Shown: positions 9,079-64,000 of the stretch, piece by piece | How the letters are laid out: each line of letters begins with the position of its first letter | How positions within the stretch are numbered: position 1 is the first letter of the stretch | Assembly (NCBI GenBank): GCA_019635775.1 | Contig: JAHBYU010000012.1 | Span: forward strand, 88,323-152,322 | DNA: 64,000 nt | Direction: 5' to 3' | Source of the DNA: Rhizobiaceae bacterium | GTDB taxonomy: Bacteria; Pseudomonadota; Alphaproteobacteria; Rhizobiales; Rhizobiaceae | Translations under genes and position numbers: made by a program | Notes under the pieces: model-generated | Database searches by the model: none | What the model was told of the DNA's origin: nothing | What the model saw: the letters and a program-made list of their open reading frames with translations, nothing else

Positions 9079-10005
9079 ATGGTCACCCGACTTTATTCCC
9101 ACCCGATCTATCTGGAGCACCTGACTCCAGCCGGCCATCCGGAGCGCCCGGACCGGTTGCGCGTCATCGAGCGGGTTCTGGAAGACGAGAAGTTCGCCTA
9201 TCTGGATCGCGTCGAGGCTCCCGAAGGCGACCCGCAAACCATCCTCTATGCCCATCCGCAATCGTTCGTGGACAAGGTTCGTGCAGCCATCCCCGCCGAA
9301 GGTTTGGAACGCATCGAGGCAGACACCTGCGTCAGTCCGAAAAGCTGGCTGGCGACGCTGACCGCCATCGGCGCGGCCAACGCCGCCGTGGACGACGTCT
9401 TTTCCGGCGCGGCGGACAATGTGTTCGTCGCTTCCCGGCCGCCCGGCCATCACGCGGAAAAGGCCACGGCGATGGGATTTTGCCTGTTCAACCACGCCGC
9501 CATCGCCGCCCGTCATGCCCAAAAGGCGCATGGCGCGGAGCGTGTCGCCATCGTCGACTGGGACGTGCACCACGGCAACGGAACGCAGGACATCTTCTGG
9601 GACGATCCGAGCGTGCTCTACTGCTCGACGCACCAGATGCCGCTCTATCCGGGCACCGGCGCAGCCAATGAGACCGGTGCGGGCAACATCGTCAACGCCC
9701 CGCTCGCGCCACAGACAGGCAGCGATGTCTTTCGCGAGGCGTTGCGTTCGCGCGTCCTGCCCGCTATCGAAAATTTTGCGCCGGACCTGATCATCATTTC
9801 CGCGGGCTTCGACGCGCATCACCGCGATCCGCTTGCCCAGATCAATCTGGTCGAGGACGATTTCGACTGGGCAACGGGGCAACTGATGGAAAGCGCTTCG
9901 CGCGATTGCGGCGGCAGGCTCGTCAGCCTTCTCGAGGGAGGATATGACCTGCACGGCCTGGCTTTTTCGGTTGCGGCCCATGTCAGCCGCATGATGAGGG
10001 GATGA
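9079..10005 (+). CDS. Histone-deacetylase-fold hydrolase (acetylpolyamine/acetoin-utilisation type)
   Basis: This 308-residue cytosolic protein has the arginase/deacetylase fold used to remove acetyl or acyl groups from amines. The active-site elements are in order: SRPPGHHAE with the tandem His, [24 protein letters not shown] supplying two zinc ligands, and [12 protein letters not shown] supplying the third. The LLEGGYD motif closes the site near residue 285. Bacterial members act on acetylpolyamines or similar small molecules, and the substrate here is not evident. It overlaps the start region of xseB. Confidence 0.88.
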
Positions 10006-10007
10006 CC

Positions 10008-10259
10008 ATGTCCGACGAGGCGAACGAAGACATCAAGACCATGAGCTTCGAGAAGGCGCTCGAGGCGCTGGAAAAGATCGTCGACGACCTAGAGCGCGGC
10101 GATGTTCCGCTCGACCAGTCGATCCGCATCTACGAACGCGGCGAGGCGCTCAAGGCGCATTGCGATCGCCTGCTGAAGGCAGCCGAGGATCGCGTGGAAA
10201 AAATACGCCTGTCCCGCGACGGCAAGCCCGCGGGTACGGAGCCGCTCGACCCTGAATGA
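10008..10259 (+). CDS. xseB: Exodeoxyribonuclease VII small subunit
   Basis: XseB associates with several copies per XseA to form exonuclease VII, which trims single-stranded DNA. The family core [18 protein letters not shown] is followed by [22 protein letters not shown], which forms a coiled coil. The length (83 from this start) is normal. The ATG at 10008 is preferred over the ATG at 10002, which overlaps the upstream stop. The reason is that GAGGGG (9996-10001) would abut the first but lies 6 bases from the second. Related genomes place xseB directly before dxs. Here several genes lie between them. Confidence 0.92.
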
Positions 10260-51018: not shown

Positions 51019-52799
<1,781 letters not shown>

Positions 52800-52809
52800 G
52801 CCTGTCCTT

Positions 52810-53919
52810 TCAATGCCTGCGTTTCGTAGCGCCGGGTATGGCGGATTCAATGACTTTTTTCATCACGGTCGGCAACGCCTCGTCATGCACGCCCGAGATG
52901 GGCGACCACCGATGGCCTTCGGGCGCGTCCATTCGGAAGACATCGGCGCGGAAGACATCCAGTTCTAGGGAAAAATGGGTGAAGACGTGCGTGATGCTGC
53001 CGGCTCGCCGCCAGTCCGCGGGGAAGGGGGCGCTTTCGACGGTCTTGTCGCCATCCTGCCGGGCGGTCCAGTCGCTTGTCGGCACCTCGCTCATTCCGCC
53101 AAGAAGGCCTTTTTCCGGGCGCGTCCTCAGCAGGATTGAACCGTCCCGGCTGAATGCGACGAATGCAGCCCCGTGCCGTGCGGGCTTCGGTTGCTTCTCC
53201 GCCTTGACGGGCAGCAGTTCCGGATCGCCTGCGACGACAGCTTCGCAATCGTCCAGCAACGGGCACAGCATGCAGCGCGGTCGCTTCGGCGTGCAGATCG
53301 TCGCGCCGAGATCCATCATGGCCTGGGCGAAATCGCCGGGCCGCTCGTCGGGGACCAGATCGTCCAGGGCAACGCGGATTTCGGCTTTTGCAAGGGGCAG
53401 GGGCGTTCGAATCTCGAAAAGCCTTGCGGTGACGCGTTCCACATTGCCGTCAATGACGATAGCCCTGCGGCCGAAGGCGATCGCGGCTATTGCCGCTGCG
53501 GTATAGGCGCCGACCCCGGGCAGTGCGCGCAGGCCTGCCTCATCGTCGGGAAACTTGCCTCCCATGTCCTTGGCTACGGTATCGGCGCATTTCTTTAGGT
53601 TGCGCGCGCGCGAATAGTAGCCCAGTCCGGCCCAGGTTTTCATGACATCCTCGGATTGCGCTTCCGCGAGGTCCGTTATCGTTGGCCATTTCTCGAGAAA
53701 TTTCCGGAAATAGGGCTTCACGGCCTCGACCGTGGTCTGTTGCAGCATGATTTCCGAAAGCCAGACGTGATAGGGTTCCGGCCGAACCCCCTTTGCGAGG
53801 GCGAGCGGGCCGGTTCGCCACGGTAATTCGCGATGGTGCGCGTCGTACCAGTCAAGGAGCCTGCCGGCGATGTCGCCTTTGTCGGTCCTTGTCTTGCGGG
53901 CCTGCTCGGTGGATGCCAT
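52810..53919 (-). CDS. mutY: A/G-specific adenine glycosylase
   Basis: MutY removes adenine opposite 8-oxoguanine. The 369 residues comprise a helix-hairpin-helix glycosylase domain with WLSEIMLQQTTVEAV (catalytic Glu) and ALPGVGAYTAAAIAAIAFG, and then the conserved IVIDGNVERV. An iron-sulphur cluster follows: CTPKRPRCMLCPLLDDC, the expected C-x6-C-x2-C-x5-C. The C-terminal NUDIX-like domain (about 230-360) recognises the damaged base and includes the HVFTHFSLEL stretch. The frame is open upstream, but the family N-terminus begins at the ATG at 53919. Confidence 0.96.
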   Translation of the reverse strand: MASTEQARKTRTDKGDIAGRLLDWYDAHHRELPWRTGPLALAKGVRPEPYHVWLSEIMLQQTTVEAVKPYFRKFLEKWPTITDLAEAQSEDVMKTWAGLGYYSRARNLKKCADTVAKDMGGKFPDDEAGLRALPGVGAYTAAAIAAIAFGRRAIVIDGNVERVTARLFEIRTPLPLAKAEIRVALDDLVPDERPGDFAQAMMDLGATICTPKRPRCMLCPLLDDCEAVVAGDPELLPVKAEKQPKPARHGAAFVAFSRDGSILLRTRPEKGLLGGMSEVPTSDWTARQDGDKTVESAPFPADWRRAGSITHVFTHFSLELDVFRADVFRMDAPEGHRWSPISGVHDEALPTVMKKVIESAIPGATKRRH

Positions 53920-53962
53920 TGGTCGCGGGAACGTTTGGGGAGGCATTGGATGCTTGAGGCAC

Positions 53963-54469
53963 ATGGCAGGAAAAAGGCCTGATCGCAACGCCGTCGCCGT
54001 AAGCGACCTCGCCACCGATATTCTCGATCCGGTGTTGCGTCGTCGCGCCGGTATCTCGATCGGACTGGTGCAGTCGTGGGAGGATATCGTTGGTCCACGG
54101 CTGGCCAGGACGTCCCGGCCCGAGAAGATCCAGTGGCCACGGCGGATGCATGACGACGACCCTTTCGAGCCGGCGGTGCTCGTTATTGCCTGCGAAGGTG
54201 CTGCCGCGCTCCATCTCCAGCATGAGACCGGCGAGGTTATCTCCCGCGTCAACGCATTTCTGGGCTTTTCGGCCATTGGCCGCGTCCGGATCGTCCAGAA
54301 GCCGGTGGAAAGCGGCCAGCTTCGCGAAAAGCCGGCCCGACGGGCGCTTGCGCCTGAGGAAAATGCACGTATCGCCCGGGTTGTCGGCAACGTCGAGGAC
54401 GATGGGCTTCGCGCCGCGTTGGAGCGTCTTGGCGAAAGCGTCCTTGCGTCAAAGGCGCGCAAAGGCTGA
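53963..54469 (+). CDS. DciA/DUF721-family protein
   Basis: The 168-residue protein belongs to the DUF721/DciA group; DciA loads the replicative helicase in many bacteria that lack DnaC or DnaI. The N-terminal half (about 5-100) has the DUF721 pattern: DLATDILDPVLRRRAGIS, LVQSWEDIVGPRLAR and TRPEKIQWP-like TSRPEKIQWPRR, then LVIACEGAAALHLQHETGEV. The C-terminal part is helical and charged. It is divergent from mutY with a 43-bp gap and precedes the DsbA-like gene, an order seen in related genomes. Confidence 0.87.
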   Translation: MAGKRPDRNAVAVSDLATDILDPVLRRRAGISIGLVQSWEDIVGPRLARTSRPEKIQWPRRMHDDDPFEPAVLVIACEGAAALHLQHETGEVISRVNAFLGFSAIGRVRIVQKPVESGQLREKPARRALAPEENARIARVVGNVEDDGLRAALERLGESVLASKARKG

Positions 54470-54601
54470 TTTGCCTCTCGCGAACGTGATGACGGCCACA
54501 ATTTTGGCGATTGGATTGCCCACTGGGATGGCCTAATGCCCGCAACACTCGCCTTTCGGGGCCCAGGTGTTGCAAGATCGAACCAAAATCAGGTGATTCG
54601 C

Positions 54602-55306
54602 ATGACACGCCCTCTGCACCGCAGAACCGTCCTTTCCCTGCTCGCCGTGTCCGGCGTGGCTGTCCTTGCGGCCTGCAGCGATTCAGGCGATGCACCCAAG
54701 ACAGAGGCTCCCGCGCCTGCCGATCCGCCTGCCGCCGCCGTCGAGGCGCCGGCATCCGCCGGCAGCGTCGACATGGCCGAGGTGCTCCAGCCCGGCTCAT
54801 TGCCTGACATGGCGCTCGGCAACGACGATGCTCCGGTCACCATCGTCGAATATGCCTCCCTAACCTGTCCGCATTGCGCGCATTTTCATGAGACGACCCT
54901 GCCTGAGTTGAAAAAGAAGTATATCGATACTGGCAAGGCCCGTCTGATTTTGCGCGAATTCCCCTTTGATCCGCGTGCCGAAGCAGGTTTCATGCTGGCG
55001 CGTTGCTCGAAGGACAACTATTTCGCCATGGTCGATGTGCTGTTTAAACAACAGCGCAACTGGGCGTCCGTACAAAATGCCAAGGAGGCTTTGCTGCAGA
55101 TTTCCCGTTTGGCCGGTTTTTCACAGGAGTCCTTCGAGGCGTGCTTGACGGATCAGAAGCTTCTGGACGATGTGAGGGCTGTGCAAAAGCGGGGTGCAGA
55201 GGAATTCAAGGTCGACTCTACTCCTACCTTTTTCATTAACGGGAACACCTACAAGGGGGCCCTGACGATTGAGGAAATGTCGGCGATCATCGACGGCATG
55301 CTCTGA
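54602..55306 (+). CDS. DsbA-family thioredoxin-fold lipoprotein
   Basis: The 234-residue protein has a signal with a twin-arginine pair (R7-R8) and a lipobox LAAC ending in C25. It is followed by a Pro/Ala-rich linker (about 30-60). The thioredoxin-like DsbA domain carries the active CxxC C89-P-H-C92 in YASLTCPHCAHFHETTLPEL and the cis-Pro loop STPTFFINGNTYKGAL near the end. It should oxidise or isomerise disulphides on the periplasmic face of a membrane. The ATG at 54602 begins the signal; upstream in-frame sequence is not conserved. It precedes smc. Confidence 0.9.
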   Translation: MTRPLHRRTVLSLLAVSGVAVLAACSDSGDAPKTEAPAPADPPAAAVEAPASAGSVDMAEVLQPGSLPDMALGNDDAPVTIVEYASLTCPHCAHFHETTLPELKKKYIDTGKARLILREFPFDPRAEAGFMLARCSKDNYFAMVDVLFKQQRNWASVQNAKEALLQISRLAGFSQESFEACLTDQKLLDDVRAVQKRGAEEFKVDSTPTFFINGNTYKGALTIEEMSAIIDGML

Positions 55307-55360
55307 CGCCCGCCTCATGTGCAATTGGGCGGGCTTTCGCTCGCCTATCGGATGGCAGGC

Positions 55361-58300
55361 ATGAAGTTTTCGCGCCTCCGTCTTCTTGGCTTTAAATCAT
55401 TTGTCGAGCCCGGCGAGTTCGTCATCGAGCGCGGCCTCACGGGAATCGTAGGGCCGAACGGCTGCGGCAAGTCCAATCTTGTCGAAGCGCTGCGCTGGGT
55501 GATGGGCGAAAGCTCGTACAAGAACATGCGCGCGTCCGGCATGGACGACGTCATCTTCTCCGGATCTGGTACGCGCCCGGCTCGAAATACGGCGGAGGTG
55601 ACGCTTTTTCTGGACAACGCGGATAGAACCGCTCCGGCTGCTTTCAACGATGCGGACGAATTGCAGGTTTCCCGTCGCATCGAGCGGGAAGCCGGATCGG
55701 TCTATCGTATCAACGGCAAGGAAGCGCGCGCCAAGGATGTGCAGCTTCTTTTTGCCGACCAGTCGACTGGTGCCCGTTCGCCCTCGATGGTTGGTCAGGG
55801 ACGCATCGGGGAACTGATCCAAGCCAAGCCGCAGGCCCGCCGGGCGTTGCTTGAGGAGGCTGCCGGGATTTCCGGTCTCCACACCCGTCGTCATGAGGCT
55901 GAATTGCGGCTGCGGGGGGCGGAACAGAACCTGGAGCGTCTCGACGACGTCGTTGCCGAGCTTGAAGCCCAGATCGAGAACCTGAAGCGACAGGCACGTC
56001 AGGCGTCGCGCTTCAAGAACCTCTCTGCCGACATACGTAAGGCCGAGGCGACGCTTCTTCACGTGCGCTGGACGCTCGCCAAGGCGGCCGAGGCGGAGGC
56101 TCAGTCCGCGCTTTCGGCGGCGACATCGGTCGTGGGCGAGCGCGCCAGCGCCCAGATGGAAGCCGCGAAGGAGCAGGCGATCGGCGCGCACAAGATGCCG
56201 GAACTGCGCGACACGGAGGCCGCCGCCGCCGCCGCCTTCCAGCGCCTTTCCATCGCAAAGGCGCAGATCGAGGAAGAAGCCAAACGCATGGAGCAGCGCC
56301 GTGGCGAACTGGCCCGCCGCCTGGCGCAGTTCGACGCCGACGTGGCGCGCGAAGAACAGATGGTCCGGGACAACGCGGACGTGCTGCAGCGCCTTGATGC
56401 CGAGGAGGCCGAGCTTGCTGGGGAAAACGCCTCCTCGCAGGAACGAGAAACCACGACACGCGCAGCTTTCGAGGCCGCTTCTTCAGCCTTGACGCTTTCG
56501 GAAGCCGCATTGGCAAAGCTGCAGGCGGAGCGTGCCGAAGCGGTCGCCGCGCGCAACCAGCTCGAACGCTCGCTGAGGGAAACAGACGAGCGCCGTGAAA
56601 GGCTTGAACGCCAGCTTGCCGGTGTTGACCGGGAGGCAGACGAGATTGCCCAGCGGATTGCGGGGCTTGCCGATCCGGCGGAAAAGAAGCAGCTGGCCGA
56701 TGAAGCGCAATCAAGGCTCGAAAGCGCCGAGGCAGCCGCAACGGCTGCGGAAAGGGCAGTTGCCGAAGCGCGCGCCGCCGAAAGTGCCGCCCGCCCGCCA
56801 CTTCAGGAAGCTCGTGCGGCCTTGGCGCGCATAGAGACCGAAGCCAAGACGCTGGCAAAAGTTCTGAGCGCGGTCTCAGGCGATCTTTTCCCTGCCGTCC
56901 TTGAGCAGATCAGTGTCGAGCGCGGCTACGAGGCTGCGCTGGGCGCTGCCCTCGGCGAGGATCTCGATGCCGCGCTGGATCCCGGAGCGCCGGCTCATTG
57001 GGCAAGCATTGAAGGCTTCGCTCACGATCCCGCACTGCCCGAGGGTGTGCGCAGCCTCGCCAGTGTCGTAAAGGCTCCCGTCGAGCTCGCCAGGCGTCTG
57101 GCTCAAATTGGCATCGTCGAGGATGACCAGGGTGCTCGCCTGCAGTCATTCCTGAAAACAGGACAGCGTCTGGTCAACAGACAGGGAGCGTTGTGGCGCT
57201 GGGATGGCTTTACCGCCAGCGCGGATGCACCGACGGCTGCCGCGCAGCGCCTTGCGCAGAAGAACAGACTGTTGGAACTCGACGCCGAGATGGCGACTGC
57301 TACGCAGAAGGTGCAGGCGGCGGAAGCTTTGCTTGCGGCTGCCGAAGCCGCCGTGCGCGAGCGCGTCGCAGCCGAAGCCAATGCCCGTCAGGGCTGGCGC
57401 GATGCACAACGCGTGCTTGGAGAGGCGCGCGACGCGCTGGCGCGTGCTGAAAAGGCTGCCGGAGAATTCGGCGCTCGCCGCCAGTCGCTTGTCGAGTCGC
57501 GTACCCGTATTGCCGACGATCTGGCAGAGGCGGCAAATGCCGTCACGCAGGCCGAAGCGCAACTGGCCGCCGCACCCGATCTTGGCGATCTCGGTCAAAG
57601 GCTGGAAGCGCTAGCGGCCACGGTTGCCCGTGATAGAGGTGTGCTCGCCGATGCCCGCGCCATCCACGAGGGACTGAAAAGAGAAGCGGAAGCACGGACA
57701 CGGCGCCTGGCTGCCATAGGCACGGAACGCAGCACCTGGATGCAGCGCGCAGCCAATGCCGACAAGCAGATCGCTTCTCTTGCGGAACGCCGCGTCGAGA
57801 CCGCCACGGAGTTGCAGGGCCTGGAGGACGCTCCGGATGAAATCGACGCGAAGCGTCGCTCGCTTCTAAGCGAGTTGTCGAAGGCGGAAGCGCTGCGCAA
57901 GGAAGCCGCCGACAAGCTACAGGAAGCAGAGAACCGTCAGGCGCTGCTGGACAAGGCCGCGCTTGCCGCCGTCCAGCAGCTTTCGGAGTCGCGTGAGGCG
58001 AGGGTTCGTGCCGAGGAGCGCCTGAACGCTGCTGATGAGCGCCGCAAGGAAGCGGAAGCGCGCATTCAGGAGGTTCTGAACACACCACCCCATCTTGCTA
58101 TACGGCAGGCCGAGCTCGATTCGGACGCGCCGCTGCCGGATACGGTCGACATCGAGCGGCGTCTCGATCGGCTGAAGGTGGAGCGTGAGCGTCTCGGCGC
58201 CGTAAACCTGCGCGCCGAGGAGGAGCAGCGGGAACTGTCTGAACGTCACGAGACGATCGTTTCGGAGCGCGAGGACGTGATCGAGGCGATCCGCAAGTTG

Positions 58301-58819
58301 CGTCAGGCGATCCAGAGCCTGAATCGCGAGGGACGCGAACGCCTGCTGGCAGCTTTCGAGGTCGTGAATGACCACTTCAAGCGCCTATTCACCCACCTTT
58401 TCGGGGGCGGCACTGCCGAACTCCAACTCATAGAATCCGAAGACCCCCTCGAAGCCGGGCTTGAAATCCTTGCCCGGCCGCCGGGCAAGAAGCCTCAGAC
58501 CATGACCCTCTTGTCTGGTGGCGAACAGGCGCTGACTGCAATGGCACTGATCTTCGCGGTATTCCTGACAAACCCCGCGCCGATCTGCGTGCTCGACGAG
58601 GTCGATGCGCCGCTTGACGACCACAATGTCGAGCGGTTCTGCAACCTTATGGATGAAATGGCTGCGTCGACCGAGACCCGTTTCGTGGTCATCACCCACA
58701 ACCCCATCACGATGGCGCGCATGAATCGCCTGTTCGGCGTCACGATGGCCGAACAGGGCGTAAGCCAGCTTGTTTCGGTCAACCTTGAGACCGCCGAAAG
58801 GCTACGGGAAGCGAGCTGA
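55361..58819 (+). CDS. smc: Chromosome segregation protein SMC
   Basis: SMC forms the ring-shaped condensin with ScpA and ScpB that compacts and segregates chromosomes. The 1152-residue length is normal. The N-terminal ATPase half has Walker A GPNGCGKSN (31-39), followed by a long coiled coil (about 170-510), the hinge (about 510-660) and the returning coil (about 660-1010). The C-terminal half has the signature LLSGGEQALTAMAL (about 1050) and Walker B CVLDEVDAPLDDHN (about 1076-1089). The frame is open to 55319, but the usual start is the ATG at 55361 (MKFSRLRLLGFKSF). Confidence 0.97.
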   Translation: MKFSRLRLLGFKSFVEPGEFVIERGLTGIVGPNGCGKSNLVEALRWVMGESSYKNMRASGMDDVIFSGSGTRPARNTAEVTLFLDNADRTAPAAFNDADELQVSRRIEREAGSVYRINGKEARAKDVQLLFADQSTGARSPSMVGQGRIGELIQAKPQARRALLEEAAGISGLHTRRHEAELRLRGAEQNLERLDDVVAELEAQIENLKRQARQASRFKNLSADIRKAEATLLHVRWTLAKAAEAEAQSALSAATSVVGERASAQMEAAKEQAIGAHKMPELRDTEAAAAAAFQRLSIAKAQIEEEAKRMEQRRGELARRLAQFDADVAREEQMVRDNADVLQRLDAEEAELAGENASSQERETTTRAAFEAASSALTLSEAALAKLQAERAEAVAARNQLERSLRETDERRERLERQLAGVDREADEIAQRIAGLADPAEKKQLADEAQSRLESAEAAATAAERAVAEARAAESAARPPLQEARAALARIETEAKTLAKVLSAVSGDLFPAVLEQISVERGYEAALGAALGEDLDAALDPGAPAHWASIEGFAHDPALPEGVRSLASVVKAPVELARRLAQIGIVEDDQGARLQSFLKTGQRLVNRQGALWRWDGFTASADAPTAAAQRLAQKNRLLELDAEMATATQKVQAAEALLAAAEAAVRERVAAEANARQGWRDAQRVLGEARDALARAEKAAGEFGARRQSLVESRTRIADDLAEAANAVTQAEAQLAAAPDLGDLGQRLEALAATVARDRGVLADARAIHEGLKREAEARTRRLAAIGTERSTWMQRAANADKQIASLAERRVETATELQGLEDAPDEIDAKRRSLLSELSKAEALRKEAADKLQEAENRQALLDKAALAAVQQLSESREARVRAEERLNAADERRKEAEARIQEVLNTPPHLAIRQAELDSDAPLPDTVDIERRLDRLKVERERLGAVNLRAEEEQRELSERHETIVSEREDVIEAIRKLRQAIQSLNREGRERLLAAFEVVNDHFKRLFTHLFGGGTAELQLIESEDPLEAGLEILARPPGKKPQTMTLLSGGEQALTAMALIFAVFLTNPAPICVLDEVDAPLDDHNVERFCNLMDEMAASTETRFVVITHNPITMARMNRLFGVTMAEQGVSQLVSVNLETAERLREAS

Positions 58820-58890
58820 GGCAAGCCTCCGCGTAGCCGCGCACAACGCCCGAAACTCACGCCGAGAACATGCACGGCGCCGCATGCTTC

Positions 58891-58912
58891 GGATGCGACA
58901 GGCCCCGCATCC
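58891..58912 (+). promoter_or_regulatory. Hairpin downstream of smc
   Basis: GGATGCG (58891-58897) and CGCATCC (58906-58912) are perfect arms around an 8-base loop in the gap between smc and the desaturase-fold gene. There is no T-run, so termination would need Rho or another factor. Confidence 0.35.
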
Positions 58913-58918
58913 GGGCCC

Positions 58919-58963
58919 ATGAATCTGCCGCAGAGATGATAGAAATGATAGATTCATCGGCAG
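58919..58963. promoter_or_regulatory. Interlocked repeats with two GANTC sites upstream of the oxygenase-operon promoter
   Basis: ATGAATC (58919-58925) pairs with GATTCAT (58951-58957), and CTGCCG (58925-58930) pairs with CGGCAG (58958-58963), so the arms are interlocked rather than nested. GAATC (58921-58925) and GATTC (58951-58955) are both CcrM methylation sites, exactly 30 bp apart. The element ends 5 bp before the -35 box, the place where activators bind. Confidence 0.5.
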
Positions 58964-58967
58964 AATT

Positions 58968-58996
58968 ATTGAGGCATTATCTCGCAAAAGCTATAT
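58968..58996 (+). promoter_or_regulatory. Probable promoter of the desaturase/MocE operon (ATTGAG-N17-CTATAT)
   Basis: CTATAT at 58991-58996 is a perfect alphaproteobacterial -10 and lies exactly 17 bases after ATTGAG (58968-58973), a four-of-six match to CTTGAC. Transcription would start near 59003, about 56 bases before the ATG. Confidence 0.5.
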
Positions 58997-59058
58997 CTCA
59001 CTGAGCGGACGAGAGGCCATCAGCGCGTCAAGCGTGATGGGCAGTCCAGGAGGAAGCG

Positions 59059-60168
59059 ATGAGCGCCGTCGAGGTTGGAAATAAAACCGGTTCCAAGCGC
59101 GACTATAGTCTTGTCGGCGAGAGCACCAAGCGCGCCGTAGAAACCGGACTGGCGTCCGCCGAATGGTATCACACCGACGTTCCCCGCAAGGTGATGAAGG
59201 AACTGATGCAGCGTTCGGATGGTCCAGCCATTCGCGACACCCTTCTCTGGATCGCGCTTATCCTGGGCTCGGCTGTCGGGGCTATCTGGTTCTGGGGAAG
59301 CTGGTGGTGCGTACCGTTCTTCGTCGTCTATGGGGTGCTCTACGCATCATCGAGCGATTCCCGATGGCATGAGTGCGGCCACGGCACTGCCTTCCGGACG
59401 CGGTGGATGAACGACGCGGTCTACCAGATCGCGTCCTTCATGCAGATGCGCAATCCGGTGCAGTGGCGCTGGAGCCACGCCCGCCATCACACCGATACGA
59501 TCATCGTCGGGCGCGACGCGGAAATCGCGGTCATGCGTCCGCCCGATCTTTTGCGTGCGCTCCTAAGCTTCACCGGACTGCTGGACTTTCGCTATTCTCT
59601 ACCGGGGCTGTTTCGGCAGGCGGCGGGCCGTCTGACCGACGAGGAAAAAAGTTACATACCCGAGATGGAATGGCTGAAGGCGATCGTCGCGGCGCGCTGG
59701 CATGTCGCGATCTATGTCGCGACGGCGGGGCTCGCCATCTACATGCGATCATTCCTCCCCCTGATGCTGATAGGCGGCCCGCGCCTTTATGGTACCTGGC
59801 ACATGGTGCTGACCGGGCTGCTGCAGCACATCGGCCTTGCCGACAACGTGACCGACCACCGCCTGAACACGCGCACCGTCTACATGAATCCGATCAGCCG
59901 TTGGATCTACTGGAACATGAACTACCATGTGGAACATCACATGTTCCCGATGGTGCCCTATCATGCGCTGCCAAGGCTGCACGAACTGATCAAACATGAC
60001 CTGCCGGCGCCAAATCCGTCCATGTGGCACGCCTACAAGGAAGTCTGGCCGGTGGTGCTCCGGCAGTTGCGCTACGAAGACTACTACCTGAAGCGCGAAC
60101 TGCCGCCGACGGCCCGGCCTTACAAGGAAGAGTTCCACAATCTCATCATTCCCGCCGCTGCCGAATAA
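59059..60168 (+). CDS. Membrane di-iron oxygenase of the fatty-acid-desaturase fold (MocD-like)
   Basis: The 369-residue membrane protein has the three histidine boxes of the desaturase/alkane-hydroxylase superfamily: HECGH (104-108), HARHH (140-144) and HVEHH (290-294). An additional HIGLADNVTDHRLNTRTV stretch (about 257-274) is present. Predicted membrane helices lie near 60-95 and 207-255. The next two genes encode a Rieske ferredoxin and its reductase, so it is likely the oxygenase of a three-component system. The rhizopine oxygenase MocD is of this fold, and demethylation or hydroxylation is a more likely role here than fatty-acid desaturation. GGAGG lies before the ATG at 59059. Confidence 0.85.
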   Translation: MSAVEVGNKTGSKRDYSLVGESTKRAVETGLASAEWYHTDVPRKVMKELMQRSDGPAIRDTLLWIALILGSAVGAIWFWGSWWCVPFFVVYGVLYASSSDSRWHECGHGTAFRTRWMNDAVYQIASFMQMRNPVQWRWSHARHHTDTIIVGRDAEIAVMRPPDLLRALLSFTGLLDFRYSLPGLFRQAAGRLTDEEKSYIPEMEWLKAIVAARWHVAIYVATAGLAIYMRSFLPLMLIGGPRLYGTWHMVLTGLLQHIGLADNVTDHRLNTRTVYMNPISRWIYWNMNYHVEHHMFPMVPYHALPRLHELIKHDLPAPNPSMWHAYKEVWPVVLRQLRYEDYYLKRELPPTARPYKEEFHNLIIPAAAE

Positions 60169-60226
60169 GCCTTAACCAGCCATCCGGACACAGTTTTCAG
60201 CTCCGGGAGCCAGATGGAAGAAGACC

Positions 60227-60541
60227 ATGTCCGAATGGGTAGAAGCCTGCGCCGCCGACGATGTCGAGGAGGAGGATGTTATCCGGTTCGACCACGCCGG
60301 CCGGACCTTTGCGATCTATCGCTCGCCCGATGACGAGTATTTTGCGACAGACGGTCTTTGCACGCATGAGAAGGTCCATCTTGCCGATGGGCTAGTGATG
60401 GACGACATCATCGAATGCCCCAAGCACAACGGTCGGTTCAACTACAAGACAGGCGCGGCCAAGGGCGCTCCTGTCTGCGTGAACCTCAGGACCTATCCGG
60501 TAAAGCTGGAAGCCGGAATGGTCATGATCCAACTGGACTGA
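60227..60541 (+). CDS. MocE-family Rieske [2Fe-2S] ferredoxin
   Basis: The 104-residue soluble protein is a Rieske-type ferredoxin. The cluster ligands are C45 and H47 in GLCTHEKVHLADG, and C64 and H67 in ECPKHNGRFNYKTG, giving C-x-H-x16-C-x2-H. The length and the LRTYPVKLEAG end match MocE of rhizopine catabolism and related small ferredoxins of ring-hydroxylating systems. It should carry electrons from the reductase encoded 4 bp downstream to the oxygenase encoded 58 bp upstream. GAAGAAGA precedes the ATG at 60227. Confidence 0.92.
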   Translation: MSEWVEACAADDVEEEDVIRFDHAGRTFAIYRSPDDEYFATDGLCTHEKVHLADGLVMDDIIECPKHNGRFNYKTGAAKGAPVCVNLRTYPVKLEAGMVMIQLD

Positions 60542-60545
60542 CGCG

Positions 60546-61778
60546 ATGGATGCGCGCGGAGCCGTCATCGTCGGTGCAGGCGAATGTGGCGCCCGCGCAG
60601 CCTTCGCGTTGCGGGAAGAGGGCTATGCGGGCCCGACAACCCTGATTGGTGAGGAAACGCATCTTCCTTATGAACGTCCGCCCCTGTCAAAGGAGGGCAT
60701 GGCGTCGGATGCCTCCGGCCTGAAGCTAATTGCCGATGCGGCGCATTTCGCGGATGCGGGGATACGGCTGCTGCTCGGCAGCAAGGTGATTGCTATCGAT
60801 CGCGCGGCGAAAACGGTTTCGTTTCGCAGTGGCAGCACGATCCCCTACGAGATGATGCTGCTCGCGACGGGCGCGCGCCCACGCCGGTTGCCGCTTGCAG
60901 AAGCATCGGGCCACTGCCTCTACCTTCGCACCCAAGATGAAGCGAATGCAATCGCGAGTCGATTTCGTCAGGGCGCACACGTCGTCATTGTCGGAGGCGG
61001 CTTCATCGGGCTGGAACTGGCGGCGGCTGCGAGTCGGCATGGATGCACGGTAAGCCTGCTTGAGGCCGCGCCGCGGCTGCTAGCACGCGCGGTTCCGCCG
61101 GAGATCGCCGAAGTTATCGGGAATGTGCATCGCTCCAACGGTGTCGACATCCGCTTGGGCGTTTCCATCGCCGGGTTCCAGGACATGGACAGGGGCGTGG
61201 AGGTGCATCTCGCGGAAGGCGCGCCGCTTCGGGCAGATTTCTGCATCATAGGAATAGGTGCGGTGCCGAACACGGAGCTTGCGCAGGAGGCGGGACTTGC
61301 CGTCGATAACGGTATCCGCGTCGACGGGACGCTTCGCACCGATGATCCTTATATCTTTGCGGCGGGCGACTGCTGCTCCTTTCCGCTGTCGATCTATGGC
61401 GGTCGACGCGTAAGGCTGGAGACCTGGCGCAATGCGCAGGAGCAGGGAACGCTGGCTGCAAAAAACATGGCGGGGGGCAATATCGAGCACGCCGCCGTTC
61501 CGTGGTTCTGGTCGGATCAGTACGATCGTACGCTACAGATCGCGGGCCTGCCCGATGAAGGGACACAGACCGTTCGCCGCGACCTTGCCGACGGTGCTTT
61601 CCTGCTTTTCCATCTGGCTGGAGACGGCCGTCTTGTCGCCGCCAGCGGCATAGGAATCGGCAATGCCATCGCCCGCGACATAAGGCTGGCCGAGATGCTT
61701 GTCGCGCGGCGCGCCGTGCCCGCAGCTGGCAGCCTCGCATCCGCCGCCGTCAAACTGAAAACGCTGCTTGCAGCCTGA
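60546..61778 (+). CDS. NAD(P)H-dependent FAD ferredoxin reductase
   Basis: The 410-residue protein is a two-dinucleotide-binding flavoprotein of the ferredoxin/rubredoxin/putidaredoxin reductase type. The FAD-binding fold begins VIVGAGECGARAAFALRE (about 7-24), with LPYERPPLSKE after it. LLATGARPRRLP and the NAD-binding HVVIVGGGFIGLELAAAA (about 145-162) follow. The second FAD motif YIFAAGDCCSFPL lies near residue 270. It starts 4 bp after the ferredoxin gene and completes an electron chain NAD(P)H-reductase-Rieske-oxygenase. MocF of the rhizopine system is the same kind of protein. Confidence 0.93.
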   Translation: MDARGAVIVGAGECGARAAFALREEGYAGPTTLIGEETHLPYERPPLSKEGMASDASGLKLIADAAHFADAGIRLLLGSKVIAIDRAAKTVSFRSGSTIPYEMMLLATGARPRRLPLAEASGHCLYLRTQDEANAIASRFRQGAHVVIVGGGFIGLELAAAASRHGCTVSLLEAAPRLLARAVPPEIAEVIGNVHRSNGVDIRLGVSIAGFQDMDRGVEVHLAEGAPLRADFCIIGIGAVPNTELAQEAGLAVDNGIRVDGTLRTDDPYIFAAGDCCSFPLSIYGGRRVRLETWRNAQEQGTLAAKNMAGGNIEHAAVPWFWSDQYDRTLQIAGLPDEGTQTVRRDLADGAFLLFHLAGDGRLVAASGIGIGNAIARDIRLAEMLVARRAVPAAGSLASAAVKLKTLLAA

Positions 61779-61791
61779 ACGGAGGATCAGA

Positions 61792-62592
61792 ATGGCAAGG
61801 ACTCGGCCTACGGTGCATGACCTGCGTGCGATGAAGGGCAAGCGGCAGCTTACGATGCTGCGCGTGATGACGCTCGACGAGGCAGAGGCCGCCGAGCGCG
61901 CTGGCATAGACATCGTTTCCATTCCGCCGGAACTGCTGGCCAATCCCCAGTACCGCGACGCCGCGCCAAGCCTGTTCTCGATGACGGGCGAAAACTTCTA
62001 TGAGATTGGCACCGCCGACGACTTTATCCGCTGGTCGTTCAGGATGCTCAAGGCTGACGCTGACGCAATCTATTGCAGTGCGGGCTATGCAACGATCAAG
62101 CGCATGGCGGATGATGCGGTACCCGTCGTAGGCCATGTTGGCCTCATTCCCTCCCGGCGGACATGGACCGGCGGATGGAAGGCCGTGGGCAAGACCGCAG
62201 ACAGCGCCATGCAGATATTCGAGGCGGTGCGCCAACTGGAGGCGGCCGGCGCTATCGGGGCTGAAATCGAAGTGGTGCCGGTCGAGGTGGCCGAGGCCAT
62301 CAGCGGGCGCACGTCTCTCCTCATGTGGTCGATGGGGGCGGGCGCCGGCTGCGACGCGCAATATCTTTTCGCCGACGATGTGCTTGGGCAAAACCGCGGG
62401 CACATGCCGCGACATTCCAAGGTCTATCGCAACTTCGCTGCGGAATATGACCGGCTGCAGGTCGAGCGCGTCGCCGCCTTCAAGGAATATGTCGCCGACG
62501 TGGAGAGCGGCGCGTTCCCCGAGGACAGACATGTCGTTCGCATGGCGCCGGAGGAACTCGAGAAGTTCCTGCGCCAGATCGAAAAGGGGTGA
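61792..62592 (+). CDS. PanB-fold protein lacking the PanB metal ligands
   Basis: The 266-residue protein resembles ketopantoate hydroxymethyltransferase along its length. Conserved pieces are VGHVGLIPSRRTWTGGWKAVG, the AAGAIGAEIEVVPVEVAEAI strand with the catalytic-base Glu (E160), and the C-terminal HMPRHSKVYRNF...ESGAFPEDRH. In E. coli PanB the Mg ligands are Asp45, Asp84 and Glu114. Here VGDS reads SIPP, the MVKIEGG loop reads AIYCSAG, and no counterpart of Asp84 is visible. It is therefore not expected to make ketopantoate. The 14-bp gap and GGAGGATC before the ATG place it in the oxygenase operon; handling of a one-carbon unit is an inference. Confidence 0.8.
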   Translation: MARTRPTVHDLRAMKGKRQLTMLRVMTLDEAEAAERAGIDIVSIPPELLANPQYRDAAPSLFSMTGENFYEIGTADDFIRWSFRMLKADADAIYCSAGYATIKRMADDAVPVVGHVGLIPSRRTWTGGWKAVGKTADSAMQIFEAVRQLEAAGAIGAEIEVVPVEVAEAISGRTSLLMWSMGAGAGCDAQYLFADDVLGQNRGHMPRHSKVYRNFAAEYDRLQVERVAAFKEYVADVESGAFPEDRHVVRMAPEELEKFLRQIEKG

Positions 62593-62744
62593 AGCGACAC
62601 GCGCGCGAAACTGAAAAGATCACGATCGTCATGGCTGGCTTCACAGGAGTGGGCTGGTCTGCGCATCGTCGACGCTTGTGGACATCGAGAGTCCCGTTTC
62701 GTGCGCTGCGCGATTTTCCGCTATGTCCTTGGAAGACCGCAGGC

Positions 62745-62773
62745 CTTGCAGGAGGCATTCTGATCGCCTATGC
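62745..62773 (+). promoter_or_regulatory. Probable thiolase promoter (CTTGCA-N17-CTATGC)
   Basis: CTTGCA (62745-62750) and CTATGC (62768-62773) are 17 bases apart, each matching four of six consensus bases, and would start transcription near 62780, about 18 bases before the thiolase ATG. It suggests that the thiolase is expressed separately from the upstream operon. The 205-bp gap 62593-62797 otherwise has only a short unsupported open frame. Confidence 0.4.
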
Positions 62774-62797
62774 GCGCTTGCTGTTCAGAGGTGTGAC

Positions 62798-63997
62798 ATG
62801 ACTGAGGCTTTCATCTGTGACTACGTCCGCACGCCGATCGGCCGCTTCGGAGGCTCGTTGGCATCTGTCCGGACCGACGATCTCGGCGCGGTTCCGCTCA
62901 AGGCGCTTACCCAGCGCAACGGATCCGTCGACTGGGCTGCAGTCGATGACGTGATCTTCGGTTGCGCGAACCAAGCCGGCGAAGACAATCGCAACGTAGC
63001 GCGCATGTCTCTGTTGCTCGCAGGCCTGCCTCTGAATATCCCGGGCTCCACGATCAACAGGCTCTGCGGCTCCGGCATGGATGCCGTCATCACGGCCGCT
63101 CGTGCGATCAGGACGGGTGAGGCCGAACTGATGATCGCAGGCGGCGTCGAGAGCATGTCGCGCGCGCCATTCGTCATGCCCAAGGCCGACACAGCTTTTT
63201 CACGCAAGGCGGAGATCTATGACACGACTATCGGCTGGCGCTTCGTCAATCCGATGATGGAAAAGCTCTACGGTACCGATTCCATGCCTCAGACCGGCCA
63301 GAACGTGGCGGACGAGTTTGGCATCAGCCGCGAGGACCAGGACAGGATGGCGCTTGGCTCGCAAGCAAAGGCGGCCGCCGCGCAGGATAACGGCCGGCTT
63401 GCCGAAGAGATCGTTTCGGTGGCGGTTCCCCAGCGAAAGGGCGATCCGGTAATGGTTTTACGCGACGAACACCCGCGCGCGACATCGATGGAGGCGCTGG
63501 CTAAACTCAAGCCTCTCTTCGCAGATGGCTCGGTGACGGCTGGCAACGCTTCCGGCGTGAACGATGGCGCGGCCGCGCTGATCGTCGCTTCCGAAGCCGC
63601 AGCGAAGAAGCACGGGCTTACGCCGGTCGCACGCGTGCTGGGCGGCGCGACGGCAGGCGTCCCACCCCGCATAATGGGCATGGGCCCTGTCCCGGCTTCC
63701 AGGAAGCTTATGGCTCGGCTTGGCCTGACACAGGATCAGTTCGACGTGATCGAACTGAATGAAGCTTTCGCCGCACAAGGCCTGGCGACTCTGCGTGACC
63801 TCGGCATTGCCGACGACGACCCGCGCGTCAACCGCAATGGCGGCGCAATCGCGCTTGGCCATCCGCTCGGAATGTCAGGCGCGCGCATCACCGGCACTGC
63901 CGCCCTGGAGCTTGTCAAGACAGGCGGAAGACGGTCACTTTCGACCATGTGCATCGGCGTCGGACAAGGCATCGCGATCGCGCTGGAGCGAGCCTGA
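62798..63997 (+). CDS. Thiolase (acetyl-CoA acyltransferase, beta-ketoadipyl-CoA thiolase-like)
   Basis: The 399-residue enzyme cleaves or forms 3-ketoacyl-CoA. The catalytic triad is complete: C90 in STINRLCGSGMDAV, H355 in AIALGHPLGMSGARI, and C385 in STMCIGVGQG. EAFICDYVRTPIGRFGGSLA at the N-terminus and NELNEAFAAQ-like ELNEAFAAQGLATL match the PcaF/AtoB group; the PcaF-type start EAFICD(Y/G)VRTP points to beta-ketoadipyl-CoA thiolase. GAGGTG precedes the ATG at 62798. No other beta-ketoadipate gene is in the window, so the pathway is not fixed. Confidence 0.92.
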   Translation: MTEAFICDYVRTPIGRFGGSLASVRTDDLGAVPLKALTQRNGSVDWAAVDDVIFGCANQAGEDNRNVARMSLLLAGLPLNIPGSTINRLCGSGMDAVITAARAIRTGEAELMIAGGVESMSRAPFVMPKADTAFSRKAEIYDTTIGWRFVNPMMEKLYGTDSMPQTGQNVADEFGISREDQDRMALGSQAKAAAAQDNGRLAEEIVSVAVPQRKGDPVMVLRDEHPRATSMEALAKLKPLFADGSVTAGNASGVNDGAAALIVASEAAAKKHGLTPVARVLGGATAGVPPRIMGMGPVPASRKLMARLGLTQDQFDVIELNEAFAAQGLATLRDLGIADDDPRVNRNGGAIALGHPLGMSGARITGTAALELVKTGGRRSLSTMCIGVGQGIAIALERA

Positions 63998-64000
63998 CGC

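Follow-up and report, generated by a model that had tools for sequence, protein, structure and literature searches.

The demethylating step of rhizopine catabolism is attributed to MocD, MocE and MocF, an oxygenase, a ferredoxin and a reductase known from Sinorhizobium meliloti L5-30 and Rhizobium leguminosarum. Genes for all three of these redox proteins lie, in unchanged order, near the end of a 64,000-nucleotide stretch of DNA from a Rhizobiaceae bacterium (assembly GCA_019635775.1, contig JAHBYU010000012.1, positions 88,323 to 152,322; hereafter, the window), where they are followed by a gene for a protein with the fold of the ketopantoate-forming enzyme PanB. This MocDEF-type cassette, with its PanB-fold partner, is well supported as a unit, its function being proposed rather than proven. 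A sequence-only reading of the window had described the four genes as one operon, and the reading frames and Pfam matches bear out both the set and its hallmarks (histidine boxes HECGH, HARHH and HVEHH, Rieske motif, reductase and PanB fold). The same reading had singled out the operon as a candidate for an undescribed pathway, a claim that loses its support since MocDEF is already described; the part for which we found no account is the PanB-fold partner, in a survey of the open-licence literature that covered mostly top-ranked titles and abstract openings.

Published passages mention comparable gene sets in several settings. In rhizobia, mocDEF-like clusters adjoin fixV-like LacI regulators, and an adjacent epimerase was proposed to act in inositol-derivative catabolism (PMC3538637), while SMb20817-20820 of S. 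meliloti 1021 constitute the same mocDEF-like gene set (PMC11387232); the relevant passages of these two papers make no mention of the PanB-like gene. Both clusters share their gene set with the window operon, and all four genes are found on S. meliloti pSymB (locus L034, from a strain other than 1021), with the PanB-like gene in fourth place. Unlike the fixV-linked clusters, the window operon has no adjoining LacI gene or epimerase. The mocDEF-like genes of Rhizobium mesoamericanum are induced by root exudate (PMC5789663), and in Pseudomonas syringae mocDEF adjoins xylA, with a function described as unclear (PMC5132102). The moc names are also in use for a different set, the mannopine genes (PMC6341043).

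The first gene of the operon (59059-60168, forward strand, as are the three that follow) encodes a membrane di-iron oxygenase of 369 residues that matches FA_desaturase (PF00487) with 120.9 bits, above the Pfam cut-off. Its three histidine boxes are present in the sequence, and H104, H108, H140, H143, H144, H290, H293 and H294 are invariant across an alignment of 28 oxygenases. These boxes, together with 67-70% identity to the MocD proteins of two loci that carry the moc box, L035 (Phyllobacterium) and L118, identify it as MocD-like, as had been proposed from the sequence; the pSymB copy of S. meliloti and the Phyllobacterium copy are 68.9-69.5% identical to it. The moc double box has been published for the mocB and mocD promoters (PMC10107442). 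We find it 5' of mocD with one mismatch in L035, which has a second before its regulator gene with three mismatches (0.00 expected), and with two mismatches in L118 (0.01 expected). A quick tree of 111 MocD rows places the window protein in a nine-row group (Shimodaira-Hasegawa-like approximate likelihood ratio test, 98) whose members have oxygenase, MocF and PanB-like protein in one operon; the neighbours vary between LacI, sugar-type ATP-binding cassette (ABC) transporter, DUF4432 and Gfo/Idh/MocA genes, and a MocR-type regulator accompanies none of them. Long branches were flagged outside the window's group of this tree, its single outgroup is too distant for rooting, and none of its rows is a functionally characterized lipid or carotenoid desaturase. 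The predicted structure of the oxygenase (mean predicted local distance difference test score, pLDDT, 74.4) gave just two PDB matches below 0.001, both to chains of chloroplast Ycf2/Orf2971-FtsHi motor complexes; a profile search of PDB sequences returned no relative.

The two electron-transfer proteins are similarly recognizable. The ferredoxin (60227-60541; 104 residues), separated from the oxygenase by 58 bp, carries the motif C-x-H-x16-C-x2-H, scores 70.4 bits with the Rieske Pfam model (above its cut-off) and 190.3 bits with MocE_fam_FeS (TIGR02377; cut-off 136.15), and is 83% identical to MocE of L035. The reductase (60546-61778; 410 residues), 4 bp further on, is a MocF-like FAD- and NAD(P)H-type ferredoxin reductase with Pyr_redox_2 (PF07992, 235.3 bits) and Reductase_C (PF14759, 70.2 bits) domains, both above cut-off; its best NCBIfam models, AndAa and HcaD, both stay under their equivalog cut-offs, and identity to MocF of L035 is 57%. 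The open frame of the PanB-like gene spans 61768-62592; its likely start is the ATG at 61792, 13 bp past the reductase stop codon, the point at which most relatives begin too.

The PanB-like protein (61792-62592) is a PanB by fold and not by residues. It matches Pantoate_transf (PF02548) with 131.0 bits, above the Pfam cut-off, and scores 93.6 bits with TIGR00222 (3-methyl-2-oxobutanoate hydroxymethyltransferase), below the cut-off of 207.55. Its AlphaFold2 model (pLDDT 86.9) was compared with the PDB using Foldseek, and the 28 best matches are PanB chains only, with template modelling scores by query length of 0.62-0.74. In PanB, Asp45, Asp84, Lys112 and Glu114 are the ligands of Mg and the ketoacid. 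Compared with PanB (E. coli K-12, PDB 1m3u; 3vav), the window protein shares the fold, His136 and Glu181 and has lost all four ligands, Asp45 falling in a gap and Asp84, Lys112 and Glu114 being replaced by G66, Y94 and S96; its genomic partners are also quite different. The loss is general in an alignment of E. coli K-12 PanB and nine other PanB proteins with 42 PanB-like rows (41 fetched places plus the window protein, which is present twice): Asp45 is absent in 40 rows and F in two, Lys112 is Y in 39, Asp84 is G in 37 and Glu114 is S or A in 34, whereas all 42 rows retain His136 and Glu181. Among the ten PanB rows, Asp45 and Lys112 are present in all, and Asp84 and Glu114 in six. To judge from its sequence, then, the protein is an unlikely ketopantoate synthase; rhizobial records, including that of S. 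meliloti pSymB, nonetheless annotate the gene as 3-methyl-2-oxobutanoate hydroxymethyltransferase, an automatic assignment made despite the loss of the residues that define PanB catalysis.

We note that loci L180-L183 encode a separate PanB subfamily in which Asp45 and Lys112 are retained but Asp84 is replaced by C and Glu114 by Q; the oxygenase and ferredoxin genes that we looked for are all absent from their neighbourhoods. The genome of the window also has a second panB (contig C35, 135696-136444; L189) with canonical residues, which is present as two pieces in different frames, owing either to an assembly error or to a broken gene.

The grouping of these genes recurs across genomes, in agreement with the sequence-only reading. 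A contig scan with the PanB-like alignment gave 542 confirmed candidates, of which the best 80 were analysed; as the PanB-like protein served to select these loci and many of them come from Mesorhizobium, counts over the sample do not represent independent events. Within 4.5 kb, tblastn located MocD-like genes in 74 of the 80 loci, MocE in 72, MocF in 29 and purU in 8; a six-frame hidden Markov model search of the whole stretches raised MocD, or a piece of it at a contig edge, to 78 and purU to 9, with MocE (72) and MocF (29) unchanged. The loci in which tblastn found no MocD are L080 and five with less than 2.3 kb of upstream sequence (L083, L088, L089, L092, L093). Only a fragment of MocD, cut by the contig edge, is present in L089, L092 and L093, and the stretch of L088, which has no MocD, begins inside or just before MocE. 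On these counts the core consists of oxygenase, ferredoxin and PanB-like protein, the reductase being often absent from the stretch.

A wider survey gave a similar picture. Across 297 genomes of the same order, PanB-like genes occupy 51 places at 130 bits or more in 31 genomes, and MocD-like genes 55 places (54 at 368 bits or more and one 266-bit fragment); weaker rows, taken as other PanB in the former case, were dropped. MocD lies within 5 kb at 33 of the 51 PanB-like places. Fifty of these were fetched, a partial one in genome G147 being left out, and 34 of the stretches hold a MocD-like gene (in L158 about 4 kb off, on the other strand), while seven more hold an oxygenase matching the model built on L124/L125, which belongs to FA_hydroxylase (PF04116). 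L159, L168 and L169 have MocE but no recognised oxygenase in the stretch, and L164 (at a contig end), L167, L173, L175 and L178 have neither. MocD, the PF04116-type oxygenase, MocE and MocF are found in none of the eight comparison PanB loci (L180-L187). At phylum level, a PanB-like match at 1e-45 occurs in 19 of 398 genomes, all of the same class. Eight further loci came from this search: six with a MocD-like gene (L246, L247, L249, L250, L251, L253), L248 with MocE about 7 kb off and iolG, and L252 with none of these. L246, which belongs to the same genus as the window, reads LacI, sugar-type ABC transporter genes, one gene without assignment, MocD, MocE, PanB-like and Gfo/Idh/MocA-type genes, in that order.

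Two loci show variants of the redox partners. In Mesorhizobium sp. 131-2-1 (L125), the PanB-like gene is accompanied by the PF04116 oxygenase and, at 9831-10154, by a Fer2-type 2Fe-2S ferredoxin in place of the Rieske MocE, so that the electron carrier can be swapped. In L176 (7809-8982), a distant PanB-like gene (35% identity) adjoins an oxygenase of the Rieske ring-hydroxylase type, a third oxygenase family.

The neighbourhoods of the relatives are suggestive of a connection with folate on the one hand and with sugars or cyclitols on the other. By our count 9 of the 80 loci have purU immediately downstream in the same orientation, and in one of these, L094, folD comes next; the order in L035 is MocR-type regulator, D, E, F, PanB-like, purU and folD, and in L033 (Mesorhizobium huakuii) PanB-like, purU and folD follow one another likewise, with no MocR gene. 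Using our own models, six members of which were assigned to families by Pfam, we counted sugar-type ABC transporter genes in 73 of the 80 loci (70 with stricter cuts; 55 if the count is limited to binding proteins and permeases scoring at least 100 bits), a Gfo/Idh/MocA gene in 54 (52 stricter), a xylose-isomerase-type triosephosphate isomerase (TIM) barrel in 58 and a LacI regulator of the modelled kinds in 27 (26 stricter). Neighbours of the set in both L035 and L118 are a MocA-type gene and genes for a MocR-type regulator and a sugar-binding protein (by annotation, and by Pfam for L035), and the PanB-like gene comes after MocF in both. In L122 and L124 the PanB-like gene is followed by iolG (that of L122 passes TIGR04380), and iolG, iolC and iolD lie a few genes from the cassette in L123. 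The context of the relatives thus points to cyclitols or sugars, and the absence of inositol dehydrogenase genes from the window, which had been used as an argument against rhizopine-like substrates, loses its force given such cassettes. We also observed, on another contig of the window's genome (G000 C12, 134641-135519; L254), a sugar-binding protein 49% identical to the one encoded beside the Mesorhizobium cassette, with a permease adjoining; the two are candidates for importing the substrate on which the cassette acts. The three strongest matches in this genome to the Mesorhizobium Gfo/Idh/MocA protein are just 25-31% identical to it.

The explanation that we favour, at a probability of roughly 55%, is that of an oxidative O-demethylase operon for a methylated cyclitol or sugar in which the PanB-like protein passes on the one-carbon unit. 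By homology to MocDEF and from the context, the operon is probably a demethylase of a cyclitol or sugar, the substrate itself being presumably a small methylated compound of either kind. Electrons from NAD(P)H would pass through the reductase and the Rieske ferredoxin to the di-iron centre of the MocD-like protein, which would hydroxylate a methoxyl group; the resulting unstable hemiacetal would break down into a free hydroxyl and formaldehyde. The PanB-like protein, for which a role in handling one carbon seems somewhat more plausible than any other, would take up this unit as formaldehyde or directly off the hemiacetal. With its metal and ketoacid ligands gone and the general base retained, with partners from two or three families of oxygenase, and with purU and folD as neighbours, it would fit an enzyme that, as we infer, no longer makes an enolate but still moves one carbon. 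Tetrahydrofolate is a candidate acceptor that we propose with some reserve, the pointer to it being the purU and folD genes of relatives; the unit would then most likely be put onto it as 5,10-methylenetetrahydrofolate, and FolD and PurU, encoded alongside in some relatives, would take it on to formate. In known folate-dependent demethylation the one-carbon unit is likewise oxidised via FolD and PurU. The candidate acceptor protein here differs in being of the PanB fold and not GcvT-like. The earlier suggestion that the PanB-like protein handles a released one-carbon unit gains support from the presence of purU, and at some loci folD, directly downstream in relatives.

Several observations weigh against this explanation. 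No purU, folD, transporter or inositol gene was seen by eye directly adjoining the window operon (no genome-wide search for purU, folD or iolG was made), and purU stands beside the PanB-like gene in a minority of loci. No moc box lies 5' of the operon, where a scan with the single-box rather than the double-box pattern gave no hit with two or fewer mismatches in 58820-59058 (43 such boxes in the whole window, against 42 expected). L080 has its MocD about 5.5 kb from the PanB-like gene on the opposite strand, L083 has MocE and no MocD within 2.3 kb upstream or 10 kb downstream, and the stretches of L167, L173, L175 and L178, whose PanB-like proteins are 37-46% identical, are without MocD, PF04116-type oxygenase, MocE and MocF. 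Lastly, just 33 of the 55 MocD-like places have a PanB-like gene within 5 kb; with 22 lacking one, it is not obligatory nearby. Twenty of these 22 were fetched (those in G130 and G104 were left out), and tblastn found no PanB-like gene in any. Some may represent assembly breaks, as L190 ends at a contig end and the PanB-like and MocD matches of G042 and of G147 lie on different contigs. In L198 purU adjoins mocF in place of the PanB-like gene, and selected proteins encoded around 16 of the 20 loci, inspected by eye with no family scan, included no formaldehyde dehydrogenase that we recognised as a replacement. The association thus runs largely one way: the presence of a PanB-like gene is a much better predictor of an oxygenase than an oxygenase is of a PanB-like gene.

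The main rival to one-carbon transfer has the PanB-like protein act as a folate-free C-C lyase (aldolase or retro-aldolase) on an oxidised sugar or cyclitol skeleton. The sugar dehydrogenases and isomerase-type TIM barrels around the relatives would suit such an enzyme, and the folds that rank below PanB, with much weaker scores, include methylisocitrate lyase and oxaloacetate decarboxylase. Lyases of the methylisocitrate lyase type and PanB use a bound metal, however, and the PanB metal ligands are gone from this protein, a loss of metal and substrate ligands that also leaves the aldol or retro-aldol step put forward by the sequence-only reading unsupported in its PanB form. Moreover, the partner most tightly kept is an oxygenase, from two or three families, which suggests a shared one-carbon product rather than a shared skeleton, and the purU and folD neighbours speak against a folate-free reaction; we consider a lyase unlikely. 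A second ketopantoate hydroxymethyltransferase for coenzyme A synthesis is far less probable still. Database annotation and the PF02548 match favour it, as does the broken frame of the genome's other panB, but the TIGR00222 score, the absence of Asp45, the replacement of Lys112, Asp84 and Glu114, and an operon partner that is an oxygenase rather than panC all argue otherwise. A true PanB was rejected on the TIGR00222 cut-off and these residues.

As regards the oxygenase, its close identity to MocD of the two moc-box loci raises the question of whether this is the operon for rhizopine (3-O-methyl-scyllo-inosamine) itself. Set beside rhizopine MocDEF, through the moc-box loci and not the L5-30 genes, the window operon lacks an upstream moc box, and no mocA-, mocB-, mocC- or mocR-like gene was seen by eye in 52000-63999, the contig ending with the window so that its far side is out of view. 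The nearest tree group, too, has no MocR-type regulator alongside. We regard a rhizopine operon as improbable, and rhizopine-specific regulation was rejected for want of the box. The least probable of the alternatives has the oxygenase desaturate or hydroxylate lipids, hopanoids or carotenoids, as the Pfam family name FA_desaturase might suggest: NCBIfam scores of 31.8 bits for DesB (cut-off 500), 22.9 for CrtR (475) and 20.3 for DesA (500) are far too low and led us to reject it, and sugar-type transport genes lie in most of the relatives' stretches.

On the 5' side of the operon lie an smc-like gene and a thioredoxin-fold (DsbA-like) gene, both read by eye; on the 3' side the last gene before the contig end, which is also the window end, is the 3-oxoadipyl-CoA thiolase gene pcaF (62798-63997, forward strand, scanned as 62792-63997; TIGR02430, 674.2 bits, cut-off 597), an ordinary neighbour outside the unit. 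The operon had been credited with a promoter candidate of its own, which a scan of 58700-63000 for sigma-70-like sites, the one promoter type covered, does not confirm: none lies 5' of the oxygenase, and the sole site falls inside the oxygenase gene, with 1.3 expected by chance. Promoter and terminator scanning gave no signal beyond chance, and Rfam no match at gathering score in 52000-64000. Further upstream, a DNA methyltransferase-like gene (51025-52191; motifs DPPYN and PTQKPEALL read by eye) is presumably of the cell-cycle type common in this group.

A more speculative extension of the one-carbon reading concerns the PanB paralogue as a whole, which occurs in many alphaproteobacterial genera and is called panB in the annotations that we saw: it may be a metal-independent one-carbon transferase that passes to tetrahydrofolate the methyl carbon set free by membrane di-iron or Rieske demethylases, so that cells could grow on O-methylated cyclitols without accumulating free formaldehyde. 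If the PanB-like protein is indeed the one-carbon acceptor, it would fill a missing step in the catabolism of rhizopine and methyl-inositols and represent a new formaldehyde-capture enzyme. Pinitol, ononitol and other methylated inositols abound in legumes, so the operon could have a bearing on the diet of rhizobia in and around nodules.

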